DNA of 40,955 nt from Candidatus Bipolaricaulota bacterium. Its GTDB lineage: Bacteria; Bipolaricaulota; Bipolaricaulia; Bipolaricaulales; Bipolaricaulaceae. The notes below the pieces were generated by a model. The model was given only the letters and a program-made list of their open reading frames with translations, had not been told where the DNA came from and made no database searches. The stretch is taken from assembly GCA_938083225.1 (NCBI GenBank), contig CALKCH010000053.1, forward strand, positions 1-40,955. The letters are read 5' to 3'. This document shows, piece by piece, positions 14,561 to 22,767 of the stretch. Position 1 is the first letter of the stretch. Every line of letters starts with the position of its first letter. Position numbers and translations under genes: made by a program.

Positions 14561-16018
14561 GTGCATCTTTGTGTTGACCGGATCTGGGGCGAACATCCGA
14601 CGGCCAAGGAGATTGTGGAGGAACTAGGCCGCGCTGGGCACCTGGCGGTGCTCGTAGGGGGTGTGGTGCGCGATGCCCTGCTCGCGGAGCTCGAGGGGCA
14701 TGAATTTTTCCCTCAAGACGTAGACATTGCTACCTCTGCTCCTCCGGAAGTGGTTCGCCGTATTTTCGCCAAGCGGTACAAAGTGCTCACGGTGGGCGAG
14801 GCCTTTGGAGTTGTGGTGGTGGTGGGAGCGGGCGGCCGGCAGTACGAGGTGGCCTCATTCCGTGCGGAAGGGGACTACCGGGACGGACGGCGACCGGGAA
14901 AAGTGCAGTGGGCAGATCTAGCCCAGGACCTCCAGCGCCGGGATTTCACCGTGAATGGCCTAGCAGCCACCCCCCAGGGAGAGGTGATCGATCTTGTGGG
15001 CGGGCTGGAGGATCTGCGCCGCCGCATCATCCGTACCATCGGCGACCCGGATCAACGCTTCAGCGAAGACTATCTGCGGTTACTCCGGGCAGTGCGATTT
15101 GCTTGCCAACTGGGGTTTTCTTTGGAGGAGAGAACAAAAGAAGCCATTCGCCGCCATGCTTCCAAAATTTTGCGCATCTCCTGGGAGCGCATCCGCGACG
15201 AGCTCGTGCGCATTCTGCGTACGCCGCGTTCCGCCCAAGGAGTTCAGACGCTAGCTGAACTTGGCCTTCTTTCTCCCATCCTCCCGGAGGTTGCCGAACT
15301 TCAAGGAGTGGCACAGCCCATAGAGTACCACCCCGAAGGAGATGTTTTTTCTCACACCCTTTTGGCTCTAAGCGTAGCCGACGGCATTTGGGATGACCCT
15401 CTTCTTAAGCTCGCCCTTCTCTTTCACGATGTGGGCAAGCCCCAAGCTTTGCGGCGCTCGGACGGAGAGAACATGGCTGGGCACTGCCGACTCGGGGCAA
15501 AGATTACTCAGGAAGCAATGGCCAGATTGCGCTTTTCCCACAAGGAGATAGAATACGTGAGCTTTCTCGTGGTCGAACACATGCGCGTCGCCAAACTCCC
15601 AGAGATGGGTTTAGGGAAGCAAGTGCTTCTTTTGTCTACCGGGGAGAATGGGGCTTTCGGTCTTGTTCAATTTGCTCAGAGATTTCCGCGGTTTGCTGAT
15701 CTTCTTCGGGTCCTCATCTGCGATGCCGAAGCCTCAGCCCACCACAGTTCCGCTTGGCTTCCCGTGCTTAGGCAAGCGGCGATGCTTCTTTTGCATCTTC
15801 GCCGGGTACAAGGGATCAGGCGGGCACGGGAGCTCCTCTCCGGAGCGGACCTTTTGGCCATGGGCGAGCCCCCCGGGCCCCGGTTGGGCCGAGTGCTTGC
15901 GGAAGTTCACGAGAGGATTTTGGCCGGGGATATTACCACGCGGGAAGAGGCTATTGCGGAGGCGGCCAAACTTCTTGGGCGTAAAGGCATCGATTTTCCT
16001 GTTGACCAAGGTAGCTAA
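14561..16018 (+). CDS. cca: CCA-adding tRNA nucleotidyltransferase / PcnB family with HD domain
   Basis: This gene encodes 485 residues. The nucleotidyltransferase head shows LVGGVVRDALL (residues 31-41) and the catalytic DVD (residues 53-55), followed by 'RRDFTVNGLA' (residues 126-135) and the 'RxxSED.LRLLRAVRF' neck. A metal-dependent HD hydrolase domain is marked by LFHDVGKP (H289, D290). It builds or repairs the 3' CCA end of tRNAs; the HD domain can remove 2',3'-cyclic phosphates. A role as poly(A) polymerase or as an A- or CC-adding enzyme in a two-enzyme system cannot be excluded. The GTG start lacks a ribosome site. The 3' end contains the hpf promoter. Confidence 0.92.
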   Translation: MHLCVDRIWGEHPTAKEIVEELGRAGHLAVLVGGVVRDALLAELEGHEFFPQDVDIATSAPPEVVRRIFAKRYKVLTVGEAFGVVVVVGAGGRQYEVASFRAEGDYRDGRRPGKVQWADLAQDLQRRDFTVNGLAATPQGEVIDLVGGLEDLRRRIIRTIGDPDQRFSEDYLRLLRAVRFACQLGFSLEERTKEAIRRHASKILRISWERIRDELVRILRTPRSAQGVQTLAELGLLSPILPEVAELQGVAQPIEYHPEGDVFSHTLLALSVADGIWDDPLLKLALLFHDVGKPQALRRSDGENMAGHCRLGAKITQEAMARLRFSHKEIEYVSFLVVEHMRVAKLPEMGLGKQVLLLSTGENGAFGLVQFAQRFPRFADLLRVLICDAEASAHHSSAWLPVLRQAAMLLLHLRRVQGIRRARELLSGADLLAMGEPPGPRLGRVLAEVHERILAGDITTREEAIAEAAKLLGRKGIDFPVDQGS

Positions 16019-16029
16019 TTGATTATAAT
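16002..16029 (+). promoter_or_regulatory. Strong promoter for hpf inside the end of cca
   Basis: TTGACC (16002-16007), a 16 nt spacer and TATAAT (16024-16029) give 5/6 and 6/6 matches to the housekeeping consensus. The start is expected near 16036, right at the AAGGAGG (16036-16042) that serves the ATG at 16050, so the leader is very short. It allows hpf to be transcribed independently of cca. Confidence 0.75.
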
Positions 16030-16049: not shown

Positions 16050-16562
16050 ATGGATTTGCACGTGGTGACCCGTTATGAAGCTGGTTCCGATGCCATGCGG
16101 CAATATGTGGAGAAAAAAGTGGTGGTTCTTTCCCGCTATTTTGATCGGATAACCCGCATGGATGTGGTCCTGGAGCCGGAGGGTTCAGTGCATCGTGTCC
16201 AGATCACCGCCCACCTCGTGAACAAGAAGGTAGTCAAGGCGGTGGCAGAGGCCGGCGATATGCTCAGCTCCCTGGACCAGGCAGTGGACAAGATGCAAAG
16301 ACAGCTTGTGCAGTTCAAAGAGAGGTTGCGGGGCGTGCGCAAGAGCGGGGATTCCCCAAACGTAGAGCGAACTCCCTTGCGGAAGACCATCGTGGAAGAG
16401 GACGATTATCTTCGCACGCCTGTATCCGTAGAGGAAGCCGCGGAGGAGCTGGAGGCGCGCGGGCGGGAGTTCCTCGTGTTCTTCGAGGCCGAAACCGAGC
16501 AACCGGCGGTGGTATACAAAAGAAAAGATGGGAAATATGGGCTGATTCGACCGCACCGTTGA
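16050..16562 (+). CDS. hpf: Ribosome hibernation promoting factor, long form
   Basis: This gene encodes 170 residues. Residues 1-95 or so form the S30AE/YfiA domain that binds the decoding centre of idle 30S subunits ('RYFDRITRMDVVLEPEG', 'VDKMQRQLVQFKERLRG'). Residues 117-170 or so form the C-terminal dimerisation domain of long HPF, with 'EEAAEELEARGREFLVFF' and the final 'YKRKDGKYGLIRP'. Long HPF pairs two ribosomes into inactive 100S particles. It has its own strong promoter and ribosome site, fitting stress or growth-phase control. The following gene overlaps its stop codon. Confidence 0.95.
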   Translation: MDLHVVTRYEAGSDAMRQYVEKKVVVLSRYFDRITRMDVVLEPEGSVHRVQITAHLVNKKVVKAVAEAGDMLSSLDQAVDKMQRQLVQFKERLRGVRKSGDSPNVERTPLRKTIVEEDDYLRTPVSVEEAAEELEARGREFLVFFEAETEQPAVVYKRKDGKYGLIRPHR

Positions 16563-17554
16563 GGGAGGGGAACATTCGCGCGGTAGTCCTCTATTCAGGG
16601 AGCCTGGCAAGTGGGATCGCTGCCAAATTGGTGGAGCAGGCTGGGTGTACTGACCTTTTTTTCGTCTTCTTTCGCTCCCCTTTTTTCTTGGGCGAGGAAA
16701 CGGTGCACCAGGAGGCTAAGCGCTTGGGTTTTCCCCTGCGCTTCGTCACCTTGAAGCGTGCTTTTCTTCGTTTGCCCCACGAGGGCGGGCGAATGTTTCC
16801 CTGTGGGAGCTGCCGGCGGGTGCTCCTGAGACGGGTCGGGCGCTTCTTGCGCGGGCGAAAGTTTGATTTCATCGTGACCGGAGAGGTTGTGGGGAGTGGA
16901 GGCCTGTACCAGGAGGAGCTTTTAGCCCTGGACCACGAGCTAGGCCTAGAGGGGCGGGTTCTGCGTCCACTCTCCGCAAAACTCCTTCCTCCTACTCGTC
17001 CGGAGCTCGCGGGCGTTGTGGAGCGCACGGCCTTTTTGGATCTCACTGTGGAAAATGCGGACTTCCATCTGCGCAAGCTGGCCTCTAGTTTGGGCCTGAA
17101 CACCAATCATAATGGCCGGCACTGCCTTCTCCGTAATGCCGATTTTGCTCAGCGCTGCTGGCTTTTGGCCCAAGAAGGCCCATTCACAGCAAGCTTCGTG
17201 CGCCTCTTGGAGTTTCCGCATTTTGTGCGGTTGGGTCCTGGCCAATTCTTGGTGATTGCCTCCACGCCCGCGGAACAAGTGAAGCTGCAGGATCTCTTTT
17301 TGCCCGAAGACGTGCGGTTGTACATCCCCATCCCCGGTTCCCCCCTGGGACTTTTACGTGCACCGTGGACGAGGATGGGGCCAGAGGAGCGCCAGGAGCT
17401 TGTGCACCGGGCGGCTGCCCACCTTTTGGCCTGGGCTGGCTTCCCTCAGGATCGACCGTGGACCGTGTGTTTCCGGGCTGAAGAAGAAGAGGAGACCGCG
17501 CGGATCCACGTGTGGCCGCGGGCCTTGCACCTCCCAGTGCCCCCGGTAAAATAA
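16559..17554 (+). CDS. Thiouridylase-like PP-loop protein with degenerate ATP motif
   Basis: This gene encodes 331 residues. The N-terminus has a PP-loop-like strand-turn SGSLASG (residues 13-19), where active enzymes carry SGGLDS. Later segments match tRNA-thiouridylase-like proteins (distant MnmA/ThiI relatives): PCGSC (C82, C85), 'LRPLSAKLLPPTRPE' (residues 135-149) and a third cysteine in HCLLRNADFAQR (C189). Retention of three cysteines suggests a sulfur-transfer role on tRNA or a sulfur carrier; loss of the Asp in the PP-loop suggests altered ATP use. The last 120 or so residues look like an added C-terminal domain. TTG at 16559 overlaps the hpf stop (TTGA), so translation is coupled. 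The substrate is unknown. Confidence 0.7.
   Translation: MREGNIRAVVLYSGSLASGIAAKLVEQAGCTDLFFVFFRSPFFLGEETVHQEAKRLGFPLRFVTLKRAFLRLPHEGGRMFPCGSCRRVLLRRVGRFLRGRKFDFIVTGEVVGSGGLYQEELLALDHELGLEGRVLRPLSAKLLPPTRPELAGVVERTAFLDLTVENADFHLRKLASSLGLNTNHNGRHCLLRNADFAQRCWLLAQEGPFTASFVRLLEFPHFVRLGPGQFLVIASTPAEQVKLQDLFLPEDVRLYIPIPGSPLGLLRAPWTRMGPEERQELVHRAAAHLLAWAGFPQDRPWTVCFRAEEEEETARIHVWPRALHLPVPPVK
17525..17552 (+). promoter_or_regulatory. Possible promoter for the zinc ribbon-rpoC transcript
   Basis: TTGCAC (17525-17530), a 16 nt spacer and TAAAAT (17547-17552) form a weak -35 with a good -10. It straddles the end of the preceding gene and would start near 17559, leaving a leader of about 55 nt. It is the best candidate in the only sizeable gap ahead of rpoC. 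Confidence 0.35.
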
Positions 17555-17613: not shown

Positions 17614-17832
17614 ATGCCTATTTATCGTTTCCGTTGTGATCGCTGTGGTACAGAGTTCCGGGAGCTTGTTCCCGCCGGGGCGCCCCAGGTGCGTTGCCCT
17701 GGCTGCGGGGCCGATGAGGTGACGCGCCTCCTTTCTCATTTCGGCGTGATCTATAAGGGGAGCGGTTTTTACACCACCGACTATCGTCGGAAGAAGAGCG
17801 GAGGAGAAGGTAGTTCAGAGAGCAAGGGGTGA
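17614..17832 (+). CDS. FmdB-family zinc ribbon protein
   Basis: This gene encodes 72 residues. The FmdB/CxxC_CxxC zinc ribbon is complete: MPIYRFRCDRCGTEF, then CPGCG (C8, C11, C29 and C32 as ligands). The C-terminal 'GSGFYTTDYR' followed by a basic, low-complexity tail is the standard form of these small proteins. Their function is poorly known; regulatory roles have been suggested for some. AAGGAGG lies 6-7 nt before the ATG. It lies 6 nt ahead of rpoC, where rpoB would be expected. Confidence 0.88.
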   Translation: MPIYRFRCDRCGTEFRELVPAGAPQVRCPGCGADEVTRLLSHFGVIYKGSGFYTTDYRRKKSGGEGSSESKG

Positions 17833-17838
17833 TGAGCG

Positions 17839-20800
17839 GTGCCCATCTCTGGCGATGACATTGCCAAGATCCGTATAGGTCTAGCCTCTCCCGAGGAAAT
17901 CTTGGCTTGGTCCAAAGGGGAGGTGACGAACTCCGAGACCATCAATTACCGCACGCATAAGCCCGAGCGGGGCGGGCTTTATGCCGAGGAGATCTTTGGT
18001 CCGGAGAACGACTACGAGTGTGCTTGTGGGAAGTACCGAGGGAAAAGGTACGAAGGCATCACCTGCGACAAGTGCGGGGTGTTGGTTACGGACTCCTCGG
18101 TGCGCCGGGTGAACATGGGGCATATACACCTCGCCAGCCCCGTGGTGCACTTCTGGTACCTCAAGGGGGTGGCCAGCCCCCTCTCCCGTCTCCTGGGCAT
18201 CAAGCGCCGGGATCTCCGGCGCATCGCCTACTACGAGACGGAAACAGCTCGGGAAGAACTGTACATCGTGACCCAGTCCACCTCGCCCAAGGTGGAACCC
18301 GGGGAGACCCTGTACGCCACAGAGCTGCGCATCCTCCAAAGCGTTTTCACGTTCCAAGCGGAACGGGCGTTTCTCCTCACGGCAAGCCCACGGATCGTAG
18401 CCGAGGAGGCCGGACGAGTGCAGTTTGAGGAGCGGAAGCTCCAAAACGGGGAGAAGTTCCGAGTTCTCGTGGTGGGGCGGCACGAGTATCCCCTGACCCT
18501 GGACGCAGAGCTGTTCGTTGAGGACGGGGACGAGGTGGCGGAGGGCGAGCTCCTCTGTGAGCGTCCCGCACGAGAAATTTGTTCCCAAACGATGTTCGAG
18601 ATGCTGCGGGCCCGCTACGACGGGGTGGACGGTCACCCGGTCGTAGAGGTGGTGGATAACCTCACGCACCTCGTGGTGCGGGTTTCGGAGAACGCTCCCC
18701 TGCGGGTGGGGCAGATGCTCTCCACGCTGGAGGTGCGAGCCTACGAGCGAGCTTACCCAGGCACGTTCGCGGCTGCGACCGGCGCAGAGGGGATCAAGAA
18801 ACTTCTCGGGGCGCTGAACCTGGAGGCCTTGGCCGAAGAACTGTGGGACGAGCTCGACCGTACCGTGAGCCAAACGGATCGCCGGCGCATCCTCCATCGA
18901 TTGGAGGTGGTAGAGCAATTGCGCCGCTCGGGGAATCGCCCCCAGGACATGGTCCTCGAGGTCATCCCCGTTCTTCCTCCCGCTCTTAGGCCCATGATCC
19001 AGCTTGAGGGTGGCAAGTTTGCCACCACAGATCTCAACGATCTCTACCGGCGCATCATCAACCGCAATAACCGGCTGAAAAAGCTCATGGAGATGGGGGC
19101 TCCGGAGATCATCCTCCGCAACGAGCGGCGGATGCTGCAGGAGGCGGTAGACGCCCTCATCCACAACGAGAAGAAGGACAATCCCATCAAAGGGCGGGAT
19201 GGCCGGCCCCTCAAGAGCCTTTCCGAGCGGATCCAGGGGAAGCAAGGCCGTCTGCGCCGGCACCTTTTGGGCCGCCGGGTGGACTACTCCGGCCGTGCCG
19301 TCATCGTGGTCAACCCCAAGCTCAAGCTCCATCAGTGTGGCATTCCCAAAAAGATGGCCTTGGAGCTCTTTAAACCCTTTATCCTCGCCCAAGTCGAAGG
19401 GCTTCCCTACGCAGATTACGACGAGGTGAAGAACCGCGCCCTGGCTGGGGAGCTCCCCGAAGTGTGGGATGTCCTGGAGAAGCTGGTGCGGGAGTATCCG
19501 GTTCTCTTGAACCGCGCGCCCACATTGCACCGACTTTCTATCCAGGCCTTCGAACCTGTGCTTGTCGACGGCGACGCCATTCAAATCCATCCGCACGTTT
19601 GTCCTCCCTACAACGCCGACTTCGACGGAGACCAAATGGCTGTACACCTGCCCCTGTCCCAAGAAGCGGTGCGGGAAGCCAAAGAGCTCATGATCTCCTC
19701 CAAGAACATCATCTCCCCGGCCCATGGTCGGCCTTTGGCCTTGCCCACCCAGGACCAGGTGTACGGCTTTTATTACCTCACCCTCTTGAACCCTGAGGGG
19801 AAAGGGAAGGGAAAGGCGTTTCGTTCCGTGGAAGAGGCCCTAAAGGCCTGGGAACTTGGGCATCTCGATTTGCATGCGCCCGTGAAGATTCGGATCGATG
19901 GGAAGCTCAGGGAAACCACGCTCGGACGGGCCCTCCTGAACCAAGTGCTGCCCCCAGACCTCCGGGATTACCAACTCCTTTGGGACTCCCGCCGCATGCG
20001 CCGCAAAATCGAGGAATGCTTCCTCCGCTACGGGTGGGAGAAGACTGCGGAAGTGCTGGACCAGCTGAAAGAGTTGGGCTTTCTGTTTGCCACACGTTCC
20101 GGGCTTACCATCTCTATTCCGGACTGTGAAATCCCCCCGGAGAAGTGGGAGATCGTCCAGGAGGCCCAGGAAAAGGTGGACCGCATCCAACACATGTACT
20201 TGCGGGGCTTGTGCACCGCGGAGCAACGGTATCAAGCGGTGACCCAGGTCTGGCGCGAGACGGTGGACCGGGTGGAGAAGGTCACCATGCAGAACTTGGC
20301 GCACAACCCGTTCAACCCAGTGTACGGGATCGTGGCCTCGGGAGCCCGGGGTTCCGCGGGCCAGGTGAAGCAGCTGGCGGGGATGCGCGGTCCCATGGCG
20401 GACCCCCAGGGACAAGTCATCGAGTGGCCCGTGATCTCTAACTTCCGGGAGGGTCTATCTATTTTCGAGTACTTCATCTCCACTCACGGCGCACGCAAGG
20501 GCACGGCAGACACGGCCCTGCGTACGGCCACCGCCGGCTATCTCACCCGCCGCCTCGTGGATGCCTGTGTGGACGTGGTGGTGAGGGAACATGACTGCGG
20601 AACCCGCCAGGGCTTGGAGGTGGATCCTCTGTACTTTACCTCCAAGGGCGAGATCATGGAGGACATCCCCGAGCGCATTTATGGTCGAGTCACCGCCGAG
20701 CCCATCCATCACCCGCTCACGGGCGAGGTGCTGGTGCCGGCGGGGACCCTGATCGATCGGGCTACCGCGGAGAAGGTGGGCAAACTCGAGATAGAGCTCG

Positions 20801-22767
20801 ATCTCACTGCTCCCGGAGTGGAAGAGCGGGCCCATCTGGCCAAGGCCGTGCAAGAAGTCGTGCATCCTCAAACTGGCCACGTTCTCCTGCGGGCGAACGA
20901 GGCCCTCACTTCCGAGCTCATCCAAGAGCTGCGGGACGCGGGGATCGAGAGGATCCGCGTACGCCCCAGGTTCATCGTGCGGTCGCCCGCCACCTGCCAA
21001 ACCCCGGGCGGGGTGTGCCAGCTCTGTTACGGCATGGACTACGCCTTCCACCGCTTGGTGGATTTGGGTACGGCTGTAGGCATCATCGCTGCTCAATCCA
21101 TCGGTGAGCCTGGTACTCAGCTCACCATGCGCACTTTCCACACTGGCGGTGTGGCCGGGCTCGACATCACCCAAGGTCTTCCCCGGGCTGAAGAGCTCTT
21201 CGAAGCCCGCAGGACCACAAAGGCTCCGCACGCCGCGGTGGCTCCGATTTCTGGGCGGGTGCTTAGGGTGGAGACAGCGCGCACCGGCCAGGATATCGTG
21301 GAAATCGAGTCTGACCCGCGTAGAGTTATCGTCCCCGCGGCTCTCCTTCAGGTGGCTGAGGGCGAGGAAATCGAGAGCAGCAAGCTTTTCTCCCTCAGAA
21401 GCCCTGGGGATGGCCGAGCTTTTGTCTTCCGCGACGGTGACCAAAACTATCTGGCCATCCTCGACGAGGATTTGGACAAAATGTACCTCCTCCCACCAGG
21501 TGTGAGCCTGAAGGTTAAACAGGGCGAGGAAGTGGAGGAGGGGCAGAGCCTCACCGAGGAATTTCACCAGGAGGCGGTGGCGGCGGAGGTGGCCGGCCGT
21601 GTGGAGATCGTAGAGGAAAAACAGCGTCGCCACCTGGTGCTCCACGGCCGCGATGGTCGGACCTACTCCTACATGGTGCCCTACGGTGCCCAAATCCTTG
21701 TGAAGAACGGGGAGGAGGTGGAGGAAGGGCAGAGACTCACCACCAAATCCCGGTCCTTGACCATTACGGCTGAAGCCGCGGGAACCGTGCTTGTCTCCGA
21801 CCGCTCCCTGGCCGTCCGGCATCGGTCCAGCCGGGGTGTGATCCTTCCCCTTCCCCCTGGGCTGGAGGTCCGCGTGGAACACGGTGCTCCTCTGCGGGCC
21901 GGACAAGAGATCCTACGGCTCGCGTGGCCCAGGCTTTCGGACACGGTGGTGGTGGAAGAGATCCAGCGGGATGGGGACCTGTGCCACGTACGGTTTCGGT
22001 TCCGGGCGCACGTGGAGTGCAGGGAAGCTGCCATCGTTCGGGAAGGGGATAAAGTAGAGCGCGGCGATCCCGTGTCCAAAGGCGTGGTCCCCCCGCAATA
22101 CCTCATGGAGGTCGCTGGGGTACGCAAAGCCTTCGACTATCTTCTCGAGGAGCTCCAGCGGGTGTACAAGACCCAAGGCGTGGACATCCACGACAAACAC
22201 TTCGAAGTGGTGCTCCGGCAGATCCTCAACAACGTGCGCATCATCGATCCCGGAGAGTCCGACTTTCTCCTCAACGACATCGTCCCGCTTGAGATTTTCC
22301 AGCGGGAGGTGGAGCGTTTGTCCCAGGAAAACGAGAAGATCCGCGCGGCTCGCGAGGAGCTGGTGGGCGCAAAGCTTCTTGCTCCCGTCACGCGGGGTGG
22401 AACGGTGGTGGCCGAGGCTGGGGAAGCACTGACCTCGGAGTTGCTGGCTCGACTAGTGGCCCTGGGTGTGCGGCAGGTGCGGGCGGAGTTGCATGGTGAG
22501 CCGCGCACCGTGCGTATCTCCGAGTATCGTCTCCCCCAAGGCGAGCGGGAGCTTCTGCGGATCTCCCGGGTGGCTTTGGTGCGCAAATCCTGGCTGGCTG
22601 CGGCTTCCTTCGAGCGAACCACTAAAGTTTTGGCCGATGCCGCGCTCCGCGGGGAAGAGGACCCCCTGGACAGCCTCAAGGCCTGCCTCATGGTGGGGAA
22701 GAAGATCCCGGTGGGAACGGGGTTCCTCCGGGACAACTCCGTTGAATCTGCGCCCCCAAAAGACTAG
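17839..22767 (+). CDS. rpoC: RNA polymerase beta' subunit
   Basis: This gene encodes 1642 residues. The first zinc site uses C61, C63, C76 and C79. The catalytic Mg motif NADFDGDQMA starts at residue 592 (D594, D596, D598). The second zinc site is C920, C1053, C1060 and C1063. The C-terminal end (VGKKIPVGTGFLRD) is canonical. At about 230 residues longer than the E. coli protein, it has a large insertion after the first 160 or so residues with hybrid-motif character ('VEDGDEVAEGELL', 'PLRVGQMLSTLEV'), as known in Thermus and Thermotoga. More such repeats lie around residues 1140-1380. The start is GTG at 17839, 6 nt after the zinc ribbon gene. rpoB is not adjacent. Confidence 0.98.
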   Translation: MPISGDDIAKIRIGLASPEEILAWSKGEVTNSETINYRTHKPERGGLYAEEIFGPENDYECACGKYRGKRYEGITCDKCGVLVTDSSVRRVNMGHIHLASPVVHFWYLKGVASPLSRLLGIKRRDLRRIAYYETETAREELYIVTQSTSPKVEPGETLYATELRILQSVFTFQAERAFLLTASPRIVAEEAGRVQFEERKLQNGEKFRVLVVGRHEYPLTLDAELFVEDGDEVAEGELLCERPAREICSQTMFEMLRARYDGVDGHPVVEVVDNLTHLVVRVSENAPLRVGQMLSTLEVRAYERAYPGTFAAATGAEGIKKLLGALNLEALAEELWDELDRTVSQTDRRRILHRLEVVEQLRRSGNRPQDMVLEVIPVLPPALRPMIQLEGGKFATTDLNDLYRRIINRNNRLKKLMEMGAPEIILRNERRMLQEAVDALIHNEKKDNPIKGRDGRPLKSLSERIQGKQGRLRRHLLGRRVDYSGRAVIVVNPKLKLHQCGIPKKMALELFKPFILAQVEGLPYADYDEVKNRALAGELPEVWDVLEKLVREYPVLLNRAPTLHRLSIQAFEPVLVDGDAIQIHPHVCPPYNADFDGDQMAVHLPLSQEAVREAKELMISSKNIISPAHGRPLALPTQDQVYGFYYLTLLNPEGKGKGKAFRSVEEALKAWELGHLDLHAPVKIRIDGKLRETTLGRALLNQVLPPDLRDYQLLWDSRRMRRKIEECFLRYGWEKTAEVLDQLKELGFLFATRSGLTISIPDCEIPPEKWEIVQEAQEKVDRIQHMYLRGLCTAEQRYQAVTQVWRETVDRVEKVTMQNLAHNPFNPVYGIVASGARGSAGQVKQLAGMRGPMADPQGQVIEWPVISNFREGLSIFEYFISTHGARKGTADTALRTATAGYLTRRLVDACVDVVVREHDCGTRQGLEVDPLYFTSKGEIMEDIPERIYGRVTAEPIHHPLTGEVLVPAGTLIDRATAEKVGKLEIELDLTAPGVEERAHLAKAVQEVVHPQTGHVLLRANEALTSELIQELRDAGIERIRVRPRFIVRSPATCQTPGGVCQLCYGMDYAFHRLVDLGTAVGIIAAQSIGEPGTQLTMRTFHTGGVAGLDITQGLPRAEELFEARRTTKAPHAAVAPISGRVLRVETARTGQDIVEIESDPRRVIVPAALLQVAEGEEIESSKLFSLRSPGDGRAFVFRDGDQNYLAILDEDLDKMYLLPPGVSLKVKQGEEVEEGQSLTEEFHQEAVAAEVAGRVEIVEEKQRRHLVLHGRDGRTYSYMVPYGAQILVKNGEEVEEGQRLTTKSRSLTITAEAAGTVLVSDRSLAVRHRSSRGVILPLPPGLEVRVEHGAPLRAGQEILRLAWPRLSDTVVVEEIQRDGDLCHVRFRFRAHVECREAAIVREGDKVERGDPVSKGVVPPQYLMEVAGVRKAFDYLLEELQRVYKTQGVDIHDKHFEVVLRQILNNVRIIDPGESDFLLNDIVPLEIFQREVERLSQENEKIRAAREELVGAKLLAPVTRGGTVVAEAGEALTSELLARLVALGVRQVRAELHGEPRTVRISEYRLPQGERELLRISRVALVRKSWLAAASFERTTKVLADAALRGEEDPLDSLKACLMVGKKIPVGTGFLRDNSVESAPPKD

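Follow-up and report, generated by a model that had tools for sequence, protein, structure and literature searches.

A PP-loop thiolase paralogue without the PP-loop aspartate is encoded beside hpf in Bipolaricaulota and probably starts at ATT or ACG in two genera

The closest described systems

The protein reported here, which we call type A, resembles several described systems in part. ThiI has a PP-loop domain of the same fold (Z 15.2-15.8) and the same FxSPF and TGE segments, but also carries the THUMP domain, ferredoxin-like domain and SGGxDS motif that type A lacks. NcsA/TtuA and the [4Fe-4S] form of LarE share with type A three cysteines in a CxxC...C-like layout, and these bind a [4Fe-4S] cluster through Cys142, Cys145 and Cys233 in NcsA of Methanococcus maripaludis (PMC10067955, in extract) and through Cys92, Cys96 and Cys172 in LarE of Thermotoga maritima (PMC9283937, in extract); unlike type A, these enzymes keep the PP-loop aspartate and adenylate their substrate. 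Ctu2/Ncs2 is, like type A, the paralogue of an active thiolase and is thought to be non-catalytic, but Ctu2 lost the cysteines (PMC10067955, in extract), whereas type A lost the aspartate, keeps the cysteines and also occurs without an active paralogue. RqcH ends, as type A does, in an NFACT-R domain (Z 12.1 for the predicted fold), which lies near the A-site finger in the RqcH-50S complex (PMC8012679, in extract); in contrast to RqcH, type A is without NFACT-N, HhH and coiled coil. Likeness over the full length is seen with a canonical paralogue, type B, and with homologues from Fusobacterium and Haliovirga, which have the same domain order, CxxC...C, RPLSAKLLPPT and NFACT-R. Type B differs in keeping SGGLDS, GQRPMSQ and GRSR, and in the loci read it is not beside hpf.

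The start of the gene also has described counterparts. Conserved AUU and AUA starts that combine a strong Shine-Dalgarno sequence with low output and are linked to IF3 are reported for Staphylococcus aureus, infC included (PMC13009471, in extract), and the kinetics of IF3 on messages with AUG, AUU and ACG have been examined (PMC8266586, in extract). The combination of a near-cognate start and a strong Shine-Dalgarno sequence, conserved within a clade, in S. aureus infC, cvfC1 and ccpN (PMC13009471, in extract) is like that proposed below for type A, although type A mostly has ACG where the S. aureus genes have AUA, and its start is proposed from sequence comparison.

Here, we show by homologue comparison, profile searches and structure prediction that type A has lost the PP-loop aspartate throughout its clade, keeps three invariant cysteines and an NFACT-R-type domain, and is paired with hpf across the phylum Bipolaricaulota. 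A comparison of start codons further points to initiation at ATT or ACG in two genera.

A degenerate PP-loop paralogue paired with hpf

The window, by which we mean the whole 40,955-nucleotide stretch of Bipolaricaulota DNA that was analysed, contains the following features around the gene:

16002..16029, plus strand: promoter-like TTGACC-16-TATAAT just 5' of hpf, matching 11/12 consensus positions
16050..16562, plus strand: hpf, long form (S30AE, PF02482, 6.8e-19; S30AE C-terminal domain, PF16321, 3.8e-18)
16559-17554, plus strand: type-A open reading frame as originally predicted, 331 amino acids from a TTG start, intact
16595..16612, plus strand: degenerate PP-loop S13-G-S-L-A-S18
16802..16813, plus strand: CxxC (C82, C85)
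16961..16996, plus strand: LRPLSAKLLPPT, residues 135-146, common to type A and the canonical paralogue
17123..17125, plus strand: C189, the third conserved cysteine
17219..17548, plus strand: NFACT-R domain, from residues 216-325 of the predicted model compared with RqcH
17614..17832, plus strand: small zinc-ribbon gene, often 3' of type A (PF09723, 1.1e-13)
17839-22767: rpoC, named from its sequence

Genes for EF-G, L2, SecY, an M24 peptidase and RpoA lie further downstream, and the proximity of EF-G, L2, SecY and RpoA places the type-A gene within a translation/transcription cluster. Promoter-like sites between 15900 and 18000 number one, against 0.4 expected from shuffled sequence, a figure that does not by itself argue for function. 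In the window rpoC comes after hpf, type A and the zinc ribbon, and no rpoB lies directly 5' of it.

Searched alone, the window protein matched nothing above cut-off in Pfam, NCBIfam or the PDB, and only family profiles gave matches. Its AlphaFold model has a mean pLDDT of 92.2. Residues 1 to about 190 of the model match PP-loop enzymes, namely YcfA (Z 16.7), ThiI (15.8, 15.3 and 15.2) and LarE (up to 15.0, and 14.4 for the [4Fe-4S] form 8cnz), and the best 50 rows of a Foldseek search against the PDB are all PP-loop superfamily proteins, in agreement with the original prediction of a thiouridylase-like protein. It is nonetheless not a ThiI by profile or by architecture: it scores 11.5 bits against TIGR00342 where the cut-off is 264.5, the SGGxDS PP-loop of ThiI occurs in 0/80 distinct type-A sequences, and the N-terminal ferredoxin-like and THUMP domains are absent, as nothing precedes the first strand of the PP-loop domain in the window protein. 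PF03054 (MnmA) likewise has no match in the window protein, and a separate gene with this domain is present in the window's genome (E 1e-61). The C-terminal 120 residues or so, originally taken for an added extension, are present but are not an addition peculiar to type A: structure prediction gives them an NFACT-R fold, in which residues 216-325 match residues 451-570 of RqcH (8s1u_H; Z 12.1, rmsd 2.7, 103 aligned; VIA-align 2), and the canonical paralogue has the domain too. Homology of type A to canonical ThiI-like proteins with NFACT-R_2 extends over the full length. All 28 type-B proteins match NFACT-R_2, ThiI and tRNA_Me_trans in Pfam, and PF18297 is found in 28/28 of them and, at E <= 0.1, in 20/38 type-A members of alignment A1, from which L014 was left out for X residues. 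PF18297 is above cut-off in some distant relatives and has no match in the window's own sequence. In most relatives NFACT-R_2 also matches long open frames that would fit a separate RqcH.

The window protein reads YSGSLASG at residues 12-19. The replacement of SGGLDS by SGSLAS, which the original prediction had proposed to follow through homologues, is real and extends over the whole clade: the PP-loop aspartate is missing from 80/80 distinct Bipolaricaulota homologues, which rules out chance or a sequencing error, and its position is held by A (73), S (4), E (2) or G (1). The rest of the PP-loop is well conserved, with S13 and G14 in 80/80 and S15 and S18 in 79/80 each. C82, C85 and C189 are each kept in 80/80, as had been noted for the window protein together with LRPLSAKLLPPT, and this is the arrangement of the [4Fe-4S] PP-loop sulfurtransferases, a CxxC plus one further cysteine. 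RPLS is retained as well, GQRPMSQ and GRSR are present in type B and absent from type A, and the NFACT-R domain has invariants of its own in type A (L248, P249, D251, R253, Y255 and R267, 80/80). The eight loci left out of alignment A3, which was built from 65 loci (L079, L084, L085, L094, L096, L101, L122 and L134), had X residues, truncation, near-identity or a motif variant. Substitution rates indicate that type A is under purifying selection, with dN/dS of 0.09-0.19 in five pairs (dS 1.57 in one pair); between the window protein and its congeners dN is 0.21-0.42 and synonymous sites are close to saturation. A divergent type-A copy beside hpf in genome G014 (L043:2992-3942) has an internal deletion around SAKLLPPT and retains SGSLAS and the three cysteines. 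Selenocysteine or other recoding was considered and rejected, as the TGA of three congeners lies outside the protein, 5' of the PP-loop and immediately ahead of the start proposed below.

Homologues were found in 40/40 genomes when the window's genome and 39 relatives were searched, and the extracted sequences separate cleanly into type A (n=39, SGSxxS) and type B (n=28, SGGLDS in 28/28). Compared as profiles, the two can be aligned along 315 columns (E 1.1e-49). In a quick tree built from 80 distinct A proteins, 28 B proteins and a fusobacterial outgroup of two sequences, A splits off with SH-aLRT 100 and B with 90; such trees came with long-branch warnings and were used for the A/B split and for the single change of start type only. 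Type A is best explained as a paralogue that arose by a single split no later than the root of Bipolaricaulota. In a scan of 84,980 species genomes with a pattern made from one type-A C-terminal motif, 98 stretches were found, of which 65 are relatives of A; homologues outside the phylum that are without this single motif would escape the scan. Most of the 65 loci are labelled Bipolaricaulota, Acetothermia or Bipolaricaulis, five are labelled uncultured bacterium, and three labelled Thermotoga sp., Neomarinimicrobiota and Fraserbacteria group inside the A tree. The first two of these three (L080, L110) are probably mislabelled bins, as the gene sits in the Bipolaricaulota tree.

Presence per genome was judged from the best E of each genome together with its places among the matches listed. 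On this basis type A is in 95/100 Bipolaricaulota genomes among the matches listed, that is, in 94 with E < 1e-57 and as the divergent copy in G014; the five genomes without it among the matches listed are 58-73% complete, and it is in 38/38 genomes at least 90% complete. Type B, complete or in fragments, is in 60/100 among the matches listed. Twelve genomes at least 90% complete (G026, G028, G031, G034, G037, G039, G057, G058, G063, G065, G067 and G086, the last with 7% contamination) have A and no B among the matches listed, meaning no B match better than A's own cross-match, and none of the 21 genomes searched from families f3, f4, f6, f7, f8 and f9 has B among the matches listed. Type A therefore does not need B. 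In the window's genome, which is 87% complete and smaller than those of its congeners, neither B nor ThiI is among the matches listed. ThiI is in 22 of the 100 genomes among the matches listed (19 over cut-off and three fragments), overlaps with the 60 B genomes in G038 only, and 19 genomes have neither. B and ThiI are thus nearly exclusive across the phylum, in counts that take no account of relatedness, and B may replace ThiI as the tRNA thiolase in Bipolaricaulota.

The link of type A to hpf, which had been noted in the window, is real and phylum-wide: hpf lies directly 5' of type A on the same strand in 64/65 loci, and in the 65th type A reaches the contig end. The distance from the hpf stop to the PP-loop serine is 30-167 nt across loci. 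The zinc ribbon and rpoC often follow 3', with exceptions. Of all the neighbours hpf keeps its place beside A most consistently, and the two genes are probably co-transcribed. An HPF-A fusion by readthrough or frameshift was rejected, since in close relatives the distance is 30, 31, 32, 37 or 41 nt, which puts hpf in all three frames relative to A; several of them have in-frame stops between hpf and the PP-loop serine.

Start codons in two genera

Where does translation of type A begin? We compared 85 distinct type-A sequences, counting codons before the PP-loop serine S13. Outside the window's group (65/85), 60/65 have ATG, GTG or TTG at -8; the remaining five carry GTG or ATG at -7 (two sequences) or ATA at -7 plus TTG at -12 (three sequences). 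The last three (L027, L100 and L101, family f2, genus g14) may represent a third near-cognate start, at a codon that is ATG in their relative L028, but the TTG at -12 makes it ambiguous. In the window's genus (8 sequences) and its sister genus g5 (12), position -7 reads ATT in 5 cases, which include the window, and ACG in the other 15. The start features of the window are:

16563..16573, plus strand: Shine-Dalgarno-like run GGGAGGGGAAC from the hpf stop to the proposed start, with same-place purine runs in the 20 sequences of the two genera
16574..17554, plus strand: type-A gene from the proposed ATT start, with ATT/ACG at codon -7 in 20/20

The run before -7 is purine-rich and reads AAGGAGG, AGGAGGTGA and similar, and GGGAGGGG in the window. 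Ten of the 20 sequences have no ATG, GTG or TTG from the upstream in-frame stop to S13. Against the proposed start, the remaining ten do have some such codon before the serine, scattered over -2, -3, -12, -14, -24 and beyond; the TTG at -12 in the window is not conserved among congeners. Likewise against the ATT/ACG start, the next canonical codon past S13 is often near, only three codons away in the nearest cases (TTG or GTG in several), but a start there is argued against by the invariant PP-loop residues that would be lost. ATT serves for 24/132 isoleucines and ACG for 87/227 threonines in the bodies of the 20 genes, which gives the pattern a naive chance of 1e-10 with relatedness ignored; on the quick tree the ATT/ACG state is a single change with support 93.

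Other genes gave canonical starts in a lenient test, in which any canonical codon from the upstream stop to about residue 10 sufficed and near-duplicate loci were counted: hpf 100/100, zinc ribbon 70/70, RRF 15/15, CCA 33/33, B 28/28 and rpoC 78/80, the other two rpoC reading N. As a positive control we used infC, at 13 of 19 loci. In the window's genome, G005 and G011 it has no ATG, GTG or TTG from the upstream stop to the conserved N-terminus and an ATT behind a Shine-Dalgarno-like run, so that infC seems to start at ATT in L166 (window's genome, contig C34), L159 and L171. G026, G028, G029 and G031 are likewise without ATG, GTG or TTG, a canonical codon is found further upstream in G008, G009 and G012, and G025, G027 and G030 have ATG close by. 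The type-A start has the look of the infC start in the window's genome.

Judged from this comparison, the window's type A probably starts at ATT 16574 and not at TTG 16559. The 4-nt overlap with hpf originally described depends on that TTG, and it disappears with the ATT start, which lies 11 nt after the hpf stop. As only two genera have the ATT/ACG start, it is not essential to function elsewhere. The pattern itself, in the window's genus and sister genus, is to our reading of the sequences what is new here.

What type A may do

A changed function, as originally suggested, is likely because GQRPMSQ and GRSR have been lost along with the PP-loop aspartate; the sulfur relay suggested at the same time may be one form of it. 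The reading we favour, tentatively and at somewhat under an even chance, is that type A is an ATP-dead, Fe-S-type thiolase paralogue that acts as an RNA- or ribosome-binding partner of HPF in hibernation. As a paralogue of an NFACT-R-bearing, ThiI-like thiolase whose adenylation-site motifs are lost, it would most likely be unable to adenylate RNA, given the missing aspartate and other motifs. Its CxxC...C triad most likely holds a [4Fe-4S] cluster, by analogy with the enzymes above, and its NFACT-R domain, which is also found in 50S-bound RqcH, would allow it to bind this subunit. It could then serve on ribosomes or tRNA as a non-catalytic or ATP-independent factor alongside HPF in hibernation, with the Fe-S site as a sensor or structural element. 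In the two genera, the ATT/ACG start would limit the output of type A and make it depend on the fidelity of initiation, as in infC. Some points count against this reading. The pairing of the genes does not prove joint function; the cysteine triad is invariant, although a protein with no catalysis at all should let it drift, and this fits an active Fe-S enzyme equally well; and ATP may bind without the aspartate, as suggested by the title of a solved structure among the fold matches, 9kqd (YcfA-D19A-ATP-GTP complex), where D19 is placed at the PP-loop aspartate from aligned ranges (model 1 to chain 8). A more specific version, in which type A is a phylum-specific ATP-dead Fe-S partner of HPF that uses NFACT-R to dock on the ribosome or tRNA and has an IF3-gated AUU/ACG start in the two genera, so that it would be made when ribosomes exceed IF3 or initiation turns lax, we regard as doubtful.

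We think it unlikely that type A, for all its unusual PP-loop, has remained an ATP-dependent RNA thiolase. S13, G14, S15, S18, the cysteine triad and RPLS are kept, and binding of ATP without the aspartate (9kqd, by its title and the inferred D19 position) would suit it; yet the aspartate is missing in 80/80, GQRPMSQ and GRSR are missing too, and SGGxDS is kept in LarE, NcsA and the canonical paralogue.

We consider it quite unlikely that type A is an ATP-independent Fe-S desulfidase on thiolated RNA, akin to TudS/RudS with a different fold and perhaps acting when ribosomes rest. The cluster site has been kept while the ATP chemistry was lost, a predicted RNA-binding-type domain is kept as well, and TudS takes off sulfur using a [4Fe-4S] cluster. 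Against this, TudS is not known to be homologous to type A.

As little weight is given to type A as an Fe-S or nucleotide sensor for transcription or metabolism that merely shares an operon with hpf. The frequent presence of rpoC and the zinc ribbon after type A would suit such a role, but hpf is the most constant neighbour, and NFACT-R has been described in 50S-bound RqcH (PMC8012679, in extract).

Could type A instead be the non-catalytic subunit in a heterodimer formed with B, in the way that Ctu2/Ncs2 pairs with Ctu1/Ncs6? The two are full-length paralogues (315 columns, E 1.1e-49) that occur together in many genomes, yet the constant company of an active paralogue is not found: no B is found, mostly in the presence of A, among the matches listed for the 12 genomes with completeness of 90% or more or for any of the 21 genomes of the six families. 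Moreover, Ctu2 lost the cysteines that type A keeps (PMC10067955, in extract), and A lies beside hpf while B lies elsewhere, so we hold this to be very unlikely. Finally, a decaying, functionless copy is hardly credible, for despite the lost catalytic motif, the weak start codons of two genera and the internal deletion in the divergent copy of G014 (L043), dN/dS is 0.09-0.19 in five pairs, type A is in 38/38 genomes at least 90% complete, and both domains have invariant sites.

In the open-licence literature searched, nothing was found on hibernation promoting factor with a PP-loop or on hibernation with thiouridine and iron-sulfur, nor on NFACT-R or NFACT with ThiI, thiolation or thiouridine. 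Burroughs and Aravind are said to have discussed, in 2014, the fusion of NFACT-R to thiouridine synthases.

In conclusion, if type A is an HPF partner of the kind we favour, it would be a hibernation-linked factor without an earlier description found in the literature searched, and a case of an RNA-modifying enzyme fold turned translation factor with its probable Fe-S site retained. It would also bear on how tRNA thiolation enzymes have been reshuffled in a mostly uncultured phylum. The conserved ATT/ACG start, if true, would give IF3 discrimination a natural target other than infC and would link the fidelity of initiation with hibernation.
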